The notes beneath the pieces were generated by a model. It saw only the letters and a list, made by a program, of their open reading frames with translations. It searched no databases and was not told the origin of the DNA. A program made the position numbers and the translations under genes. DNA of 25,549 nt from a virus: the IMG/VR virus record IMGVR_UViG_3300022514_000001, positions 1 through 25,549 of that record; one strand, 5' to 3'. Numbering within the stretch: position 1 is the first letter of the stretch; each line of letters opens with the position of its first letter. Below are positions 4,076 to 11,783 of this stretch, piece after piece.

Positions 4076-4561
4076 CTACCCCCTGGAGATCGTATCCGTC
4101 CGCCGGATAGTCCAGCTTTCAGTCGAACTTTTCTGCCTTGAATACAAAACACGGGCAATCATTATGCCCGTGTTTGCTGTGGCCGTAGCCTCCGCCCCGG
4201 CAAACCAGCCGATTTCTTCGCACTTGAAATTATTAGCTTCCGTGTCGGCGATGTAAAGCTCTGTATAGAGCTTCCCCGGCGTTACCGGGTCAGGATTTTG
4301 GCTCGTCACCTGCTTGCGGAATTGTTCAGCGACCAGTTGAGTTTGGCTGGGATCTGGTGCAGTAGTACCGTTACCCAGAGCGACGTATTTTATTTTGCCG
4401 TCGGTAATTGTTCCCCGCAGAATGTCGCGGATCATGTTCAGCCCGGCATCCGTGATCAGGTTCGGCCGGACTTCATCCCGCCAAAGTTCACGGCCCTGGG
4501 CGTCATGGGCTATGATTTCCCACTGACCAAGCCAGGATGTTATTGCTTTATCGTTCATCAT
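4076..4561 (-). CDS. Phage tail-fibre/baseplate structural protein
   Basis: A 161-aa protein of a type common downstream of siphovirus and myovirus baseplate genes. Recognisable elements are VRPNLITDAGLNMIRDIL near residue 30, then KYVALGNGTTAPDPSQTQLVAE, an EEIGWFAGAEATATANTGIMIARV segment, and a C-terminal beta strand ending WTIRRTDTIS. Such proteins form part of the tail-fibre shaft or its connector. There are two adjacent ATG codons; AAGGAGG upstream supports the first (4561). It is separated from the hub protein by 15 nt. Confidence 0.7.
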   Translation of the reverse strand: MMNDKAITSWLGQWEIIAHDAQGRELWRDEVRPNLITDAGLNMIRDILRGTITDGKIKYVALGNGTTAPDPSQTQLVAEQFRKQVTSQNPDPVTPGKLYTELYIADTEANNFKCEEIGWFAGAEATATANTGIMIARVLYSRQKSSTESWTIRRTDTISRG

Positions 4562-4576
4562 GCTTTCCTCCTTACA

Positions 4577-5635
4577 TTACATTGGATATAGGTCTTCCCG
4601 CGGGTAAAGATTTTCCGAGGGCAACAAACTGTATTGACTGACATCCAACTCATCGCTCCAGGCTGTGCTGTCACTTAATTCCACCGGCGGCGGTGAGGTG
4701 AAGGCCTCCGCCCAACCCACAACCTCTCCCACGGCCAACGGTGGCACCCTTGCCGCTGTTTCACCCCACCGCCACCATCCTGTTGCCTCCACTGGTGGCG
4801 GCAATTCGGCCACCTCCAGCCAGGCCCAGGGCTCTTCTTTTGCAATATATTTCTCCACCGGTCCTTCTTCGTCGCGCAACGTAGCCTTTTCCAGAGCAAA
4901 CAACCGCTGCGCAAGGTCCTTCAGTATGTGCGACACGTCACGCTCCGGACTTTCAAGCTGCAGCTTGATGTCTACCCGGGCCTGGCCAGGGATGCTGTCG
5001 TATATAACCTCTTTAATTTCCAAGTAGGTATCAATATTCAGATCGGGAATTTGCACCAGGATATATTCACCTGGCTTGTACACGCCGGTGAACGGTTCAA
5101 TGCTGCCTGTGATTACCGGCTGGCTGTATTTATACAGGTGTCGAAGGCCTAACTCCAGGGCCAGTTCCTTGTCGTCGGTGTCTACCCGGAGGATATCCTC
5201 AAAGACCCCGTACCGCTTCTGGCTTTCTGGTTCCTCCAGGAGAATTTTAATCGGGTATTCGTACCGGTAAGAAATCGTTCCAGTGCCGCTTGTGCACAAG
5301 TCGGGGATAAGCAACTTTTCAGAAGCATTCAGCAGAAAATCGTGTGTGCCGGGCTGGTCAATGTTCTGTAAACCGATTGTTTTTTGCTGGCCGTCCACGA
5401 TTACCGTTACCGGATCCCGGGGGGAGTAGTGCAACGGTATCGGTTCTGTCCCCACGGTAATAGGCTGAGTATATATGTCAGACAGGGCCTTACCGCCTTT
5501 AACCCAGAGGCGATTCACCAGCTGCCGGCTGTCCGGGGTGAGTTTCGCGCTACCTTTCTTGTAGGTGCCGGGCTTCAGCACGTACTTGCTCAGCCGGCTG
5601 CCGGCCGGGAAAAAGTGTATAGCTACTACGGACAC
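4577..5635 (-). CDS. Baseplate hub, second half, with GW-repeat tail
   Basis: A 352-aa protein. The N-terminal part (KLTPDSRQLVNRLWVKGGKALSD, then SPRDPVTVIVDGQQ) matches the middle of siphovirus/XkdQ-like hub proteins, where that segment normally follows a domain found here in the gene upstream (5647-6321). A helix at about 230-255 (DVSHILKDLAQRLFALEKATL) follows. The last 90 residues are Pro/Trp-rich: three units of PP-x(n)-GW or AW followed by E/D (EATGWWRWGE, GEVVGWAEAF, STAWSDELDV), closing with ENLYPREDLYP. The neighbour ends in the same motif. The start is GTG 5635 with GAAGGTGAG upstream. It probably forms the cell-facing end of the tail tube. Confidence 0.65.
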   Translation of the reverse strand: MSVVAIHFFPAGSRLSKYVLKPGTYKKGSAKLTPDSRQLVNRLWVKGGKALSDIYTQPITVGTEPIPLHYSPRDPVTVIVDGQQKTIGLQNIDQPGTHDFLLNASEKLLIPDLCTSGTGTISYRYEYPIKILLEEPESQKRYGVFEDILRVDTDDKELALELGLRHLYKYSQPVITGSIEPFTGVYKPGEYILVQIPDLNIDTYLEIKEVIYDSIPGQARVDIKLQLESPERDVSHILKDLAQRLFALEKATLRDEEGPVEKYIAKEEPWAWLEVAELPPPVEATGWWRWGETAARVPPLAVGEVVGWAEAFTSPPPVELSDSTAWSDELDVSQYSLLPSENLYPREDLYPM

Positions 5636-5646
5636 GTTCTCACCTT

Positions 5647-6321
5647 CTACCCTGGATATAGCGTTTCGGAAGGGTACAAATCTTCAGCCGGCCGCGGCGG
5701 GTAGAATATACGTTGCTGTACCGTTTCCTCCCACCCTATGCCTTCATCTGTCGCCAGGGCCGGCGGGACTAATTCCACCAGTTCGCTCCAGCCGGAGCCT
5801 TCGCCCTGGGGAATTTCCTCGGGTAGCGGTTCGGAAATAAACCACTCGTACCCGGCCAGCTTGCACAACTTTTCCATGCAGTCAAACAAAAATTCATCTC
5901 GGAAGCGAATAGTGATTACCTTGTCGCAGGGCACAATGCTGTCCCGGTTTATCCAGGGCATATATTTTGCGAAAAGGTCATTCACGATGTCGCTGATACG
6001 CCAGTTCTCATAGTTTTCCGTGACCACGATTTTCTGCGTCCGGCCGGTGTAACACATGCCGTCTATCTGTATTGCTTTCACCGGGCCGTCTACAGACTTA
6101 GCCGGGTTGAGCACCCACCCCCGGAAGATGTGATCGCCCTGGCTAATCCACACGTCACTGCCCACGGGAAAGGCGTCTATTAGTTCACCGGACACATCCG
6201 GCAACACTAAAGTAAATGACCCGGACCGCGTTGTCGCGGACAGGGTCACTGTGCAGCGATCGTAAACTTTAATCTCCCGGGGGTTACCGCCGGGAGGTGT
6301 GATGATGATTTTTGTACCCAT
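5647..6321 (-). CDS. Baseplate hub / XkdQ-like protein, first half, with GW-repeat tail
   Basis: A 224-aa protein. Residues 1-80 are beta-rich (tail-associated OB-like start: DRCTVTLSATTRSGSFTLVL), followed by the hub signature NWRISDIVNDLFAKYMPWI and FLFDCMEKLCKLAGYEWFISEP, as in phage late-control/XkdQ-like proteins. At that point other hubs usually continue into the segment that here starts the next gene. Instead this protein ends with two Trp units (EGSGWSELVELV, DEGIGWEETVQQ) and AEDLYPSETLYPG. The start chosen is ATG 6321, overlapping the tape-measure stop as TGATG with GGGGGTG 7 nt upstream; two GTG codons lie just before it. Confidence 0.65.
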   Translation of the reverse strand: MGTKIIITPPGGNPREIKVYDRCTVTLSATTRSGSFTLVLPDVSGELIDAFPVGSDVWISQGDHIFRGWVLNPAKSVDGPVKAIQIDGMCYTGRTQKIVVTENYENWRISDIVNDLFAKYMPWINRDSIVPCDKVITIRFRDEFLFDCMEKLCKLAGYEWFISEPLPEEIPQGEGSGWSELVELVPPALATDEGIGWEETVQQRIFYPPRPAEDLYPSETLYPG

Positions 6322-9300
6322 CACCACACACCCCCGGTAGCCAGGCCGTATTTACTCGCAATGCGCCTGGATACAATGTCGGCGAATTCCTCCATGCCAC
6401 GGCTGCCAACAATGGTACCGTGGTTTTCTATATGGATGTGGAGTTCACTGCGCAGAGGCTGCGGGGAAGCCAGAACAGTTAACCCCTTAACTGCTTCCAG
6501 CAGGGCATTTGTCATCATTGGCTGCAACTGAACGAGGGGTAATACCGCCTCCGGACCAGCTTCCCCTATAACTGCCGTAATTGCCTTTCTAACTATACCC
6601 CCGGATGCCATATAAGCGGGGGGATAATTGTAATTACCATGTTCATACTCATCTTCAGACCCGTAATAACGATACGCAGGCGCATTGCTAAATGGCCCAT
6701 ACCAACCAGGCCCCTGATAGCCATTTCTTGGATCTAGGTATGTTGTACCAGAATTAGAACCAGAATTACCAGTATCTGAACCAAAATCATTAGAGCCAGG
6801 TTCCGTTGTACCAATAAATTCACCAGTATCTGTGCGGAAGTACAGTTTAAGGCTAGGATCGGCATACGGATAGATATAAAACCATTCCCATCCTTCTTCC
6901 TGTGCTTTCTGGAGATATTCATAATAAGTATCCCAAAATCCTTCCAAGCTGCCACCTGCATTTACCCACAATTGTTCAGGTTCTGTGAGGGCCTGCGTAG
7001 GAGGATTGTAAATAGGGGGAGTGTAAATCGGTCTTGTAATGCTATCTATTGCGTCTTGTACAGCACTCTTACCGCTGTTAATTGCGTCTACAAGGCTCGA
7101 TATAGCATCTTGCCCTATCCTACCGAATTCATTAGGTAAAGTGCTCAATGAGCTTATCATACTTTGCGAAATTCCTGACATTGCATTTTTGACGTTTACT
7201 TCCCCGTCTTTAATGCCAACCGCTAACCCTTCGGCAACATTCTGGCCTATTTCACGCATAACCCCGGAAGGCGAGGATATGCGGAACAAAGCCTTGATGT
7301 GTGATTTTATGCCTTCTATCCATCCCGTCACCTGACTGCGCAACCAGCCAGCCATATTTTGTATGCCTGACCAGAACCCCTCAACGAGATTCTTTCCCCA
7401 GGATATTGCATTTTGTGCCAGCTGCGAAAACGTACTTATGAGCCAGGATTTGATATTGTTCCAAACTTCCTGAGTCCTGGTTTGGATATTGCTCCAAACA
7501 TTCGAAATAGTATCCTTTATCTGCTTAAATTTGGTGTTAACTTCATTTGCTATACTCTGGAAGAGCCCGGACAGGAACGTTTTAATGCTGTTCCAGGTTT
7601 CCTGAGTCTTGGTCTCAATGCTACTCCACGTGGTCGCCAACCAATCCCTGATCGACGTCCAGACGTTGGTAAAAGCGGTCTTGATGCTAGTAAGGGTATC
7701 GTTAAAGAATTTCTTTATGTCATTCCAAATCTTTTTCGTCTCATCTTCGATTTTAGACCATAAATCGGTGAGGAAATCTTTTATTGCATCCCAAATGGCT
7801 TCAGTTTTAGCCTTGATTTCGTCCCAGTTCTCTATCACCAGGGCCACCACAAGCCCTACCGGCCCGGTAATAGCAGCCAAAAGCAGCGGCCACCAGTCTA
7901 CCAGGAATTGTTTGATTGCGTTCCAAATCTCCGAAGTTGCTGCCTGAATCGCAGTCCAGGCGTTGGTCACGGCCACCCTGACGGACTCAACCGCGGTGGC
8001 GATGCTGGCTTTAATGCCCTCCCAGACCGTAGTCAGCGCCGCCCACAACTCCTGCGTCTTGGCCTTCACCACGTCCCAGTGTGTGTACAACGCTACGCCG
8101 GCGGCAATCAAAGCGGTAATGGCCGTAATAACCAAGCCAATAGGGTTCGCCCGTAAAGCCGCGTTAAACAGTGTTTGTGCCGCAGCGGCTGCCCTGGCCA
8201 CGGCGGTGTAGGTTTCTTTTGCAATAGTGACTGCTTTTACCGTCGCACTGTAAGCGGCCCAAGCTGCCGCCGTTACACCTATAACAGTCCCAATTGCAGT
8301 TAAGCCGTTCTGCACTGATAGAAGCGACGATGCAAATTCGGTCATTGTAGCTTTTGCCGCTCCGAAGTCTCCATTGATTACCTGCGCCACTGCACGAATT
8401 ACCGGTTCAACAGCTCGTAGTGCGCCGACCAGCACCTGAGCAATGACCTGGCTGATCTGGTTCAGGACGTTTAAGAACACCGGCCATACCGTGCTGTTTG
8501 CCTGTGCTACGGCGGCAAATACCGGCTCCAGGGCCATCTTTAGGTCAGCCCATATCTTGGTTAGTACCGGACCAACTGTCTCCCAATTCTGTTTGATAAC
8601 CAACGCAGCAATGCCAAAAGCTGTCAGCATCGGGTTAAGTCGCACAAAGTTGACCACCATACCTGGCAATGACCGTGCAAAGGTAAGCATAGCAGGACCA
8701 AGGCCAGCGATAACGCTGGGCAGGCCGAATATGGCGTTTCTAAACAGTTCCAGCTGTGTCCTGAGTGCTACCACTTGGGGCGAAAGAACCGCTATGCCCC
8801 CGGTAGACATCGCCACGATTGACTGTGCCAAACCATGGAAGAGCGCCCGATGCTGGATGAGAAGACCGGCCACCGGGCTGGCGGCGGCTACGAAACCGAC
8901 AGTGGCAGTAGTAGCCATACCCAGGTAGCCAATGAAAGATGCTATCCCTGGATTGTTACGCAAAAACTCGGTGGCAGCCTGGGTCGCGTTTTTAAATCCA
9001 TCAGCAATTTTGGTTAGTGTCGGTTCTACGGCCTGGTATAGTTCAACCAGTACCGCCTTCGCCCCGCGCAACGCCTCGCCAAACCGCCCCATGGCTCCCT
9101 TGTCAAGCGCCGCGTTCATCTGCTCAAATGCGCGGGCACCCTCGGTACCGGCGGCAGTGAGGTTCTTCCACTCGCTTCTGTGGGTAATAACGTCTTCTGT
9201 AGCCTTTTCGATGTCGCCCTGGTACTTCTTCAGGGCCAGAGTCATGATGTCCGCGGCCTGCTGCTGTTCCACGCCCAGTTTCTTCATCACCAGGCGCACG

Positions 9301-10340
9301 CTATCTATAGCCTGGGTCGGTTTTACTCCCCATGCATCGGCAAAGGCAAAGGCCATTTCGGCTGATTGCCGCAGGGTCTCTTTGCCCTCGTTATACTGGT
9401 TTACAAGGTGCGAAAATACTTCGCCAACTTCGCCGTACTTCTTACCGGTGGTTGTCGCCGTGTCAACCATCAGATCCTTAAATTCGCCCATGGTGGCATT
9501 AGATTCCAGGGTTTGCGCCTGGAATCTGTTCCAGGCATTCTCTGCCTCCGAAGAAAATTTGGCAACAGCCACGTTTACGCCAGCCATCGCAACGGCAGCC
9601 ATGCCGGCGTACATGCCGATCTGCTGGTATATCATCGGCAACTGCGCTATTTTTGCCTTTTGGGCGGCAGTGGTATCGGCTGCGCCCACGATTTTCTTCG
9701 CGGCGCCGTCGATGATTTCATAGGTTTTATTGGCTACGGCGGCAAGGTCCTGGTTAATAAAGCCGGCGATCTGCGCCTTTGCCCTGGCTACCTGGTCGGT
9801 GATAGGCTTAACAAAGACGTCCTTACCGAAAATTTTCTGGACTTCGTAGCCGAAGGCTTCTGCAAATTTCTTAATCGGCTCAGCATCGGCAAGCTGCTGC
9901 TTATAACGTGCCAGGGCTGCTTCGGCCTTTTTGATTTCGTCTACAAGTTCGTCAGCCCGGCCGCTCTCCTTCATCTGCTTCAGGGCCTTCTCCGTAAGGG
10001 CTATTTCTTCTTTCAACCTTGTCATCCGGACATTTGCCAGGTTGTAGAGCTGGGCCTCAAGGGCTTTCGCCTCGGCCTTTGTCTGGCCGAAGCCGAGGCG
10101 CGATAATTCGGCCCTGGTTTGCCGGATGGAACTCTCTAACTGGCTGAAGGCATGTGTGACCTGTACGGGGTTCGCGGCTTCAGCGAAACGCTTGAAAGCA
10201 ACTTCCGAATTCGCCAGGCGGGTGTTCATGTTTTGGATAACTTTTTCGGTACCCTGCAATGCCGCCTGGGCAGCGGCCAGGCTGCGCCGGAATTCCCGGT
10301 CATCAAGAGCCATCCTTGCGTAAAGTTCGCCAACTTGCAT
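6321..10340 (-). CDS. Tail tape measure protein
   Basis: A 1339-aa protein, by far the largest in the window. It sets tail length by spanning the tube during assembly and takes part in DNA delivery. The N-terminal 230 residues are helical coiled coil. Several hydrophobic stretches follow (for example MYAGMAAVAMAGVNVAVA). A long series of Trp-containing helices (TEAIWDAIKDFL, TKKIWNDIKKFF, TQETWNSIKTFL, TQEVWNNIKSWL) repeats about every 32-40 residues between roughly 780 and 1010. Near the C-terminus is the common GEAGPEAVLPL motif. ATG 10340 is preferred over an upstream TTG (10370). At about 1340 residues a tail of roughly 200 nm is expected from the usual 1.5 Å per residue. Confidence 0.95.
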   Translation of the reverse strand: MQVGELYARMALDDREFRRSLAAAQAALQGTEKVIQNMNTRLANSEVAFKRFAEAANPVQVTHAFSQLESSIRQTRAELSRLGFGQTKAEAKALEAQLYNLANVRMTRLKEEIALTEKALKQMKESGRADELVDEIKKAEAALARYKQQLADAEPIKKFAEAFGYEVQKIFGKDVFVKPITDQVARAKAQIAGFINQDLAAVANKTYEIIDGAAKKIVGAADTTAAQKAKIAQLPMIYQQIGMYAGMAAVAMAGVNVAVAKFSSEAENAWNRFQAQTLESNATMGEFKDLMVDTATTTGKKYGEVGEVFSHLVNQYNEGKETLRQSAEMAFAFADAWGVKPTQAIDSVRLVMKKLGVEQQQAADIMTLALKKYQGDIEKATEDVITHRSEWKNLTAAGTEGARAFEQMNAALDKGAMGRFGEALRGAKAVLVELYQAVEPTLTKIADGFKNATQAATEFLRNNPGIASFIGYLGMATTATVGFVAAASPVAGLLIQHRALFHGLAQSIVAMSTGGIAVLSPQVVALRTQLELFRNAIFGLPSVIAGLGPAMLTFARSLPGMVVNFVRLNPMLTAFGIAALVIKQNWETVGPVLTKIWADLKMALEPVFAAVAQANSTVWPVFLNVLNQISQVIAQVLVGALRAVEPVIRAVAQVINGDFGAAKATMTEFASSLLSVQNGLTAIGTVIGVTAAAWAAYSATVKAVTIAKETYTAVARAAAAAQTLFNAALRANPIGLVITAITALIAAGVALYTHWDVVKAKTQELWAALTTVWEGIKASIATAVESVRVAVTNAWTAIQAATSEIWNAIKQFLVDWWPLLLAAITGPVGLVVALVIENWDEIKAKTEAIWDAIKDFLTDLWSKIEDETKKIWNDIKKFFNDTLTSIKTAFTNVWTSIRDWLATTWSSIETKTQETWNSIKTFLSGLFQSIANEVNTKFKQIKDTISNVWSNIQTRTQEVWNNIKSWLISTFSQLAQNAISWGKNLVEGFWSGIQNMAGWLRSQVTGWIEGIKSHIKALFRISSPSGVMREIGQNVAEGLAVGIKDGEVNVKNAMSGISQSMISSLSTLPNEFGRIGQDAISSLVDAINSGKSAVQDAIDSITRPIYTPPIYNPPTQALTEPEQLWVNAGGSLEGFWDTYYEYLQKAQEEGWEWFYIYPYADPSLKLYFRTDTGEFIGTTEPGSNDFGSDTGNSGSNSGTTYLDPRNGYQGPGWYGPFSNAPAYRYYGSEDEYEHGNYNYPPAYMASGGIVRKAITAVIGEAGPEAVLPLVQLQPMMTNALLEAVKGLTVLASPQPLRSELHIHIENHGTIVGSRGMEEFADIVSRRIASKYGLATGGVW

Positions 10341-10353
10341 GTTCCCACCCGCC

Positions 10354-10841
10354 TTAGAGAATTTGGTCAATATAGCCCTGCTTGACGTTTTTCTGCTTCT
10401 CGGTTACGTTAGCCACTATAACGTAATCCCAGAACATTTCCAGATCAGTATCGTCGATATCATTAGGTGTCCAGCCGAAACTACGCGACAACTCCAAAAA
10501 ATAATAAATTACGAGCTGGTAGCCGGACAGGTTTACCCTGTCGGCTTCTGTGCGTTTGGGAGCTGGTTAATCTTCATCGTTACAATTTGACCTATCCAGG
10601 ACGATATCTCGTTAAAAATTGGCAGGAAATCTTCCAGGCCGAGGTTTTCCTCAATTGCCTGCGGTGTTACGTCTGGATGATTAAACGCCTCGGCTATCAG
10701 CCGCAGCATTTCGTCCAATGCCTGCTGTGTGTCCATTTTGTCCCGCACTTCCTGGAATTTTACAAACTGCCGCCACATTTTAACTTTAGGGCTCGGAGCT
10801 GTGTAAGTTTTACCGTTCAAGGTGATAGTCGGTGCGTTCAT
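10354..10841 (-). CDS. Tail assembly chaperone, frameshifted long form (gpGT-like)
   Basis: Translation of residues 1-96 from ATG 10841, then a -1 slip at CCCAAAC (10560-10554), gives a 162-aa fusion ending at TAA 10356-10354. The added 66 residues (RTEADRVNLSGYQLVIYYFL, ending YIDQIL) have no start codon and ribosome binding site of their own. They fill the gap before the tape measure gene, as the T part of lambda gpGT does. The extension holds FLELSRSFGWTPNDIDDTDL and is acidic. In lambda, gpG and gpGT must be made in a fixed ratio to load tape measure into the growing tube; the same role is inferred here. Confidence 0.85.
10522..10560 (-). promoter_or_regulatory. Programmed -1 ribosomal frameshift signal
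   Basis: On the minus strand the heptamer CCCAAAC (10560-10554) is in the X XXY YYZ register relative to the chaperone frame (CTC CCA AAC). After an 8-nt spacer comes a stem-loop at 10545-10522: GCCGACAGG pairs with CCTGT and CGGC across one bulged C, with loop GTAAA. Slippery site, spacer length and hairpin match the standard three-part signal. The -1 frame is open for 66 codons. Confidence 0.85.
10533..10841 (-). CDS. Tail assembly chaperone, short form (gpG-like)
   Basis: A 102-aa protein read without frameshifting. Its start is ATG with GGGAGGTAGATCAA upstream. It begins with a short strand (TITLNGKTYTAPSPKVKMW), followed by helices with MLRLIAEAFNH and LEDFLPIFNEISSWI, the layout of tail assembly chaperones between tail tube and tape measure genes. 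Position in the operon is diagnostic. The stop codon TAA lies inside the loop of the frameshift-stimulating hairpin. Confidence 0.85.
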   Translation of the reverse strand: MNAPTITLNGKTYTAPSPKVKMWRQFVKFQEVRDKMDTQQALDEMLRLIAEAFNHPDVTPQAIEENLGLEDFLPIFNEISSWIGQIVTMKINQLPNAQKPTG

Positions 10842-10898: not shown

Positions 10899-11783
10899 TT
10901 AAGCCGTAGTAAAGTTGATCACATACGGGCTGGCCAGGGCGTTGCCCGCCAGGTCCTTGACGTTCGTTGTAACCACGAAAATGTACTGCGTAGCAGCCGC
11001 CAGGTTGGCCGCCGGGTCGAAGGTGACTACAGTGTGGTCTGCATTGAGCGACAGGGTACCGGCTACCGGCGCACCGTCGGCCGTCATCAAAATGAAGTTG
11101 GCCGGCGTGACGGTGCTGGCCTGAATGGCCTCGCTGAAGGTTATCACGATGTTGGCGCTGACGGACACGCCGGTAGCCGCATCAGCCGGGGTGCTGGACA
11201 GCACGGTTGGAGGTGTGGTGTCAGCGGCGCCTTCCACGGCAGCGAACCAGTTAGCGCCGATACTCGGCACGTAATCCGGATGGTCCTCGTCCGCCTGCTT
11301 AATCCAGGCATCATCGAAAATGCGCTTCAGGAAAATACCCTCAATCTTCGGGGTTTGAAAGTTTACTTTGTCGTCCTTTGTTTTGTGTTCCAGCTTGGGA
11401 AGCTGGAATTTGCCTTTGAGCAGCCAAACGTACCGATATTTTCCGTTTGTCTTTAAGGATTTGAAGCCAATTGCGACATAAGGTGCCGTATCGGTGGATT
11501 TCCGTACCATTACACCGCCAGAAATAGTATGACCAAGTAGTGCGGCCTGTACTTCCAGTGGCAGGTCCTTAACTTCGAGGCTAAGTTTGATTTCCCCCAT
11601 GTTGCTGAAGGTTTCCGCAGGCCCATCGTCCGCGAAAAGAGTACCACTGGAAGGATTAGGGTCAATGTCGGCGGTTATCACCCCGGGGATGGCCACGGGC
11701 GCCTGATAGGTCACACCTGTTTCGTCGTCTTTGGTAAGGATTGCGTAATGTAAGTCACGTAAACCAACTTGAACTCCAGCCAT
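10899..11783 (-). CDS. Major tail (tube) protein with C-terminal Big_5 Ig-like domain
   Basis: A 294-aa protein. Residues 1 to about 185 form the tube domain (MAGVQVGLRDLHYAILTKDD, then GEIKLSLEVKDLPLEVQAAL and GKFQLPKLEHKTKDDKVNFQ), as in siphovirus tail tubes. After a junction at TPPTVLSSTPADAATGV, about 100 residues match the Big_5 bacterial Ig-like pattern (NIVITFSEAIQASTVTPANF, YIFVVTTNVKDLAGN). Ig domains on tail tubes, as on lambda gpV, project outward and may bind cell surfaces. AAGGAGG lies 8 nt before the ATG. With no sheath gene in the window, the tail is non-contractile. Confidence 0.9.
   Translation of the reverse strand: MAGVQVGLRDLHYAILTKDDETGVTYQAPVAIPGVITADIDPNPSSGTLFADDGPAETFSNMGEIKLSLEVKDLPLEVQAALLGHTISGGVMVRKSTDTAPYVAIGFKSLKTNGKYRYVWLLKGKFQLPKLEHKTKDDKVNFQTPKIEGIFLKRIFDDAWIKQADEDHPDYVPSIGANWFAAVEGAADTTPPTVLSSTPADAATGVSVSANIVITFSEAIQASTVTPANFILMTADGAPVAGTLSLNADHTVVTFDPAANLAAATQYIFVVTTNVKDLAGNALASPYVINFTTA

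Follow-up and report, generated by a model that had tools for sequence, protein, structure and literature searches.

A phage tail hub encoded as two genes, each ending in a short peptide that probably holds a fibre adaptor

Locus organization and identity of the hub

The window is the whole stretch of viral DNA analysed here and comprises 25,549 nucleotides. Two hub genes (5647-6321 and 4577-5635) sit between the genes for a tape-measure protein and a PF12571-like adaptor, and the locus reads as follows:

6321..10370, minus strand: tape-measure protein, directly upstream of the hub, assigned by composition and position
5647..6321, minus strand: hub N half (gene 1), 224 aa from ATG at 6321 to the stop TAG at 5647, aligning with residues ~1-160 of single-gene hubs
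5650..5835, minus strand: C-terminal tail of the N half, 62 residues, with GWSE and GWEE units and then ...YPPRPAEDLYPSETLYPG; present in 12/12 split loci
5639..5646, minus strand: Shine-Dalgarno sequence of the C half, AAGGTGAG, directly 3' of the N-half stop
4577..5635, minus strand: hub C half (gene 2), 352 aa from GTG at 5635 to TAA at 4577, with a weak PF06605 match
4580..4888, minus strand: C-terminal tail of the C half, ~100 residues, with WLE, WGE, WAE and WSD units and then LLPSENLYPREDLYPM
4076..4561, minus strand: PF12571-like stand-alone fibre adaptor, 161 aa, 27.4 bits, the proposed binding partner of both tails

The hub part of gene 1 stops at GYEWFISEP and is followed by a tail that closes in DLYPSETLYPG (C-terminal end EDLYPSETLYPG). 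Gene 2 starts 11 bases past the stop of gene 1, opens with VSVVAIHFFPAGSR and closes in NLYPREDLYPM (C-terminal end ENLYPREDLYPM). The nearest public record to the window is L003. Elsewhere in the window, the C-terminal ~100 residues (TPPTVLSSTPADAATGVSVSANIVITFSE..) of a tail-tube-like protein (10899-11783, minus strand) resemble an added Ig-like domain.

An earlier note on this DNA had proposed that the two genes are a hub split in two, and had named as the competing outcome that they are unrelated baseplate proteins. Our data support the split: gene 5647-6321 encodes the N half and gene 4577-5635 the C half of a single tail hub of the gp27/gp44/VgrG type. The AlphaFold2 model of a fused homologue, L010 (472 aa; mean pLDDT 67.7, pTM 0.58, 18 sequences), matched known hubs in a Foldseek comparison made with L010 and not with the window halves (3d37, 3cdd, 1wru, 1k28, 3gs9 and 6v8i; E 1e-16 to 1e-8, probability 1.00), so that the hub fold is established on this fused relative. 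The curated Pfam hub models did not reach their cut-offs (P0002, 24.1 bits vs 31.3 for PF06605; P0001, 17.2 vs 27 for PF24032), and hub membership is therefore deduced from the fold and from homology rather than from a family match. The likeness to Mu gp44, T4 gp27, the MuSo2 43-kDa protein, Listeria gp18 and the 80alpha hub lies in the fold and in the position after the tape measure; unlike the gp27/gp44/VgrG/Tal hubs, the window hub is divided between two genes at a hairpin turn, and each half has a W-x-E/LYP tail. Because hubs of this class are one continuous chain, as in 18 homologues, and the window and 11 other loci each have two genes, we call this hub a variant of the gp27/gp44/VgrG class. 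A tblastn search with P0002 against annotated phage records gave no match; thus, no annotated isolate among those records has a close relative.

Scans of viral and genome contigs identified 12 distinct loci split at the same point (the window, L004, L005, L006, L019, L021, L023, L025, L039, L041, L042 and L043) and 18 fused, single-gene rows. All 18 fused rows are continuous across the break and read GYEWYID..LxVNFF, as expected from the prediction that single-gene hubs would run on past GYEWFISEP into the sequence that opens gene 2. In the L010 model the break corresponds to the turn between strands 158-162 and 167-172, in a block with a pLDDT of about 84-89. When the C half was modelled alone as an AlphaFold2 monomer, its first ten residues, the second strand of the hairpin, had a mean pLDDT of 40; this disorder would fit a strand awaiting its partner chain, although monomer models built on small alignments make the observation suggestive only. 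In the 10/10 other split loci read, the N-half stop and the C-half start are near each other, with a purine-rich SD-like stretch between them.

The split loci include some from Clostridium sp. CX1 (two, prophages), a Desulfosporosinus MAG (one) and Ruminiclostridium sufflavum DSM 19573 (one, prophage); the last of these is L044, both hub halves of which are identical in reading to those of L021. Relatives are rare, being present in 1/391 genomes of the R. sufflavum class (R. sufflavum itself, plus one weak match) and in 3/30 Desulfosporosinus genomes, all of the latter among the loci already found. In L023 (3554-4672; also L071 and L150) two extra genes lie between the hub halves, one coding for a 226-aa, Ig-like-looking protein and the other for a 136-aa protein with several LYP units, and the C half carries an N-terminal extension of ~110 residues. 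Judging from these three loci, additional genes can seemingly be inserted at the split point.

The shared terminal peptide

The tail consists of one or more W-x-E units, a linker and a terminal xYPxxxxYP pair. That the same tail closes both proteins, as had been noticed in the window, holds on both halves in 12/12 split loci, and all N halves end in GWxE..P[SA]ExLYPxExLYP-like text. The earlier count of repeats was correct for gene 1, which has two (GWSE and GWEE); gene 2 has four units of the W-x-[ED] type and not three (WLE, WGE, WAE and WSD), three of the four following PP and only one being a literal GW-x-E. Across the split loci, the N half carries 1-3 and the C half 2-5 units, as counted with the regular expression W-x-[EDQ].

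In shuffled sequences LYPxxxLYP arose in 0/200,000 cases for gene 1 and in 15/200,000 for gene 2, never in both, and the motif occurs nowhere else in a six-frame reading of the window. On these grounds we exclude a chance origin of the shared tail. Nor is the repeat a lone coincidence of this locus, a doubt that the earlier note had raised, given that it recurs in all 12 split loci, in fused hubs, in distant hub families and in a DUF2612 protein. The suggestion that the repeat is not a named domain also stands: Pfam and PHROGs contain no such domain, and the LYP consensus matched only human proteins at chance level among PDB sequences. The likeness to Listeria-type GW modules (InlB type) and to SH3b wall-binding repeats is confined to the letters G-W; the window units span about 5-20 residues, whereas those modules are folded, SH3-like and ~80 residues long, and Pfam gave no match to GW-module or SH3b domains in either hub half.

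Fused hubs that precede the adaptor (L007, L008, L010, L013 and L158) carry the tail once, at the C-terminus, with exactly one W-x-E unit. In L157, on the same contig as L007, the adaptor is present and the tail has a W-x-E unit and lacks the LYP pair. The proposal that the tail was duplicated during the split thus holds as far as copy number goes, with one copy in fused hubs and two in every split locus, while its direction and mutational route are our interpretation. In the simplest reading the N-half tail would be a copy of the ancestral C-terminal tail, and the simplest route to two tailed halves would be tandem duplication followed by reciprocal loss; no intermediate of this route was found among the loci examined. 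Aligned in register, the last 16 residues of the N tails share 64% identity with fused tails, 58% with the C tail encoded in the same genome and 54% with those from other genomes, values that fit one peptide family and come from a peptide too short for dating the copy event.

Codon changes in the N tail are mostly synonymous, as judged from three pairs (window-L004, dN 0.23 and dS 1.24; L004-L039, 0.19 and 2.1; L041-L042, 0.10 and 2.1), with dN/dS ratios of about 0.18, 0.09 and 0.05 that are rough, since dS is saturated above 1. In the AlphaFold2 monomers, neither tail adopts an ordered structure.

Pairing of the tail with the downstream adaptor

The adaptor of the window (4076-4561) scores above the Pfam gathering threshold for PF12571 (27.4 bits vs a cut-off of 23); its relatives in L008 and L013 fall below it. 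In R-pyocin fibres, PF12571/DUF3751 has been proposed to be the part that contacts the baseplate (PMC6363177). While the window adaptor resembles this tail-collar fibre N-terminal domain of P2-like phages and R-pyocins by its score above the cut-off, it differs from it in being a stand-alone ORF of 161 aa and not the N-terminus of a long fibre.

With the adaptor as query (alignment A3), 50 loci that have an upstream gene were found; these loci include near relatives and so are not all independent. The upstream gene ends in xYPxxxxYP(x) in 36/42 of the closest adaptor loci and in 0/8 of the weakest relatives (L186-L193). Among all other ORFs of at least 60 aa on both strands of the 50 loci, the terminal tail occurs in 8/1711, and all eight are N halves of split hubs. 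Three kinds of protein carry the tail: (i) the hub family of the window, (ii) distantly related hubs of ~480 aa, and (iii) a DUF2612 wedge-like baseplate protein of ~200 aa that sits after a baseplate-J-like gene (L090, L113, L130; L181, L182, L185).

Within the hub family of the window, other fused hubs have a HQYHICGQT[MI]C-type end followed by a different small gene (MSVTSAANALAL..), the profile of which is homologous to that of the adaptor (hhalign probability 93, E 2.5e-7). Tail and partner thus change together within this family, with HQYHICGQ-type hubs preceding a diverged adaptor homologue. On the hub tree this swap amounts to only 1-2 independent contrasts; therefore, we claim no significance for it, and the case rests on the cross-family census.

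Upstream of distant relatives of the adaptor, genes with their ends at L189:3480, L190:512, L192:3477 and L193:3418 close in other repeats of ~30 residues (e.g. TLKRYGITPAEATDSVAAILSG), which might represent a second kind of docking tail. In Achromobacter phage 83-24 (L147:1894-2970) and in L148:1873-2940, an adaptor-like gene follows one whose product closes in F[SG]ExxxF repeats resembling the W-x-E units.

A separate DNA-pattern scan for LYP[ST][DE]xLYP covered the motif beyond this system. Where it lies near the C-terminus, the adaptor is found within 3 kb downstream in 14/24 ORFs, most of the 10 others belonging to one high-GC (actinophage-like) family; where it is internal, the adaptor is found in 6/44 ORFs and none was detected in 38/44, 14 of which left no room to see one. 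Consequently the LYP pair as a strict adaptor marker was rejected, as internal pairs mostly come without an adaptor. Only the terminal pair, nearly always preceded by a W-x-E unit, tracks the adaptor; internal pairs may serve a different function. In Roseburia phage Jekyll, an alignment made by eye places LYP units of the hub just past the equivalent hairpin. Annotated phages with the motif are mostly Mycobacterium phages, in which it lies in minor tail proteins, and also Gordonia phages; a comparison of mycobacteriophage Saal gp20, which carries the LYP pair, with the PDB yielded nothing usable. A 759-aa ORF of L109 has consecutive LYPSEM/LYPSAT-type hexamers within a long phage protein. The run of FPGDTWFPGDTLFPGD repeats in a plasmid protein of Natrinema halophilum (NZ_CP084880.1 34900-37032; L197:2281-4413) is superficially LYP-like and probably unrelated to the LYP repeats.

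A model for fibre docking and its alternatives

Combining these data, we suggest that the short shared end peptide is probably a plug that holds the tail-fibre adaptor, as indicated by genomic pairing. In this model, a hub of the gp27/gp44/VgrG class that had been the product of one gene came to be encoded by two neighbouring genes with separate translation, the break lying in one beta-hairpin turn, and the two halves would restore the hub trimer by joining again across the interrupted hairpin. Each tail would be a flexible peptide onto which the PF12571-like adaptor, the product of the gene just downstream of the hub, docks, and the adaptor would in turn carry fibre or receptor-binding proteins. 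The N-half tail would be a second copy that could have arisen, for example, if the hub gene was duplicated in tandem and copy 1 lost its C part and copy 2 its N part. Together with the additional W-x-E units of the C half, it would provide the hub with another ring of adaptor-docking sites or with a larger number of them. We consider it fairly likely that the tail is a docking peptide of this kind, copied when the hub gene split and thus adding docking sites to the hub.

A comparable arrangement is known from phage Mu, in which a fibre-docking loop of gp48 holds the N-terminus of the fibre gp49 (PMC11915804). The likeness, which we draw from genomic pairing, is that the tail is also found on the DUF2612 wedge-like protein followed by the adaptor; the difference is that Mu, whose tail is contractile, uses an internal loop of its wedge protein for docking, whereas the proposed docking element of the window is a C-terminal tail found mostly on hubs.

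Hub and fibre genes are adjacent in most phages. The pairing of tail and adaptor could therefore reflect shared gene order. The earlier note had allowed for docking or for surface binding; the genome evidence favours docking to the adjacent adaptor, and surface binding is the rival. In its explicit form, the W-x-E/LYP tails would bind the host envelope directly, either a wall polymer or the S-layer, duplication would raise avidity, and the adaptor would be a mere neighbour. Tails that are flexible, repetitive, rich in aromatic residues and placed at the exposed tip would suit such a function, as would the LYP pairs without an adaptor in many tail proteins such as the minor tail proteins of Mycobacterium and Gordonia phages. 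We nevertheless regard it as unlikely, given that the tail also occurs on the DUF2612 wedge-like protein, that one downstream gene is tracked through phages of varying base composition, and that tail type and adaptor switch together within one hub family.

Alternatively, the tails could be elements for oligomerisation or assembly of the hub (a trimer clamp, a tip plug or a chaperone-like segment) and not fibre-docking peptides. Helix 407-425 lies just before the tail in the fused-hub model, the N-half tail is placed exactly at the chain cut, and in JBD30 the tip is gated by three helices of the hub trimer (PMC11445458), all of which count for this possibility. The presence of the tail in another family and position (DUF2612), and the wholly different tail of same-family hubs where the downstream gene differs, make it improbable in our judgement.

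Finally, chance gene fission is common in phages, and the hub tree neither shows nor rejects a single origin of the split (p-AU 0.316, one change in only 4% of bootstrap trees). It is nonetheless very unlikely that a single gene has decayed or been mis-assembled here, or that the fission was neutral and the extra tail functionless. The reading as an artefact is largely refuted, frameshift and assembly error being ruled out by 12 loci, genome assemblies of cultured bacteria among them, in which both halves are open with a stop, an SD-like stretch and a start between them and the N tail is kept with mostly synonymous changes.

Returning to the docking model, a broader version of it, to which we hold only tentatively, is that the W-x-E...xYPxxxxYP tail may be a portable plug that many phages carry on unrelated baseplate proteins and that recruits a single class of PF12571-like adaptors. 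Here, the hub would have been divided at a surface hairpin so as to place the plug a second time, which would double or relocate fibre attachment and create a site for gene insertion as in L023.

The hub and the adaptor are of known kinds; the split with a duplicated tail, and the tail as a companion of the adaptor across families, appear to be undescribed. Searches thin on subscription journals and preprints found no papers containing LYP strings and, in titles and abstracts, nothing matching a hub encoded as two genes; Ceduovirus, considered as a precedent for a two-gene hub, differs. How Gram-positive siphophages attach fibres or receptor-binding proteins to their hub has, to our knowledge, been worked out in few cases. 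A short tail that accompanies the adaptor on otherwise unrelated proteins would provide a sequence rule predicting which tail protein holds which fibre. Similarly, the split hub would be a natural example of a core ring protein that was cut and gained a second copy of an attachment peptide, and may bear on how phage tips change their number of fibres.
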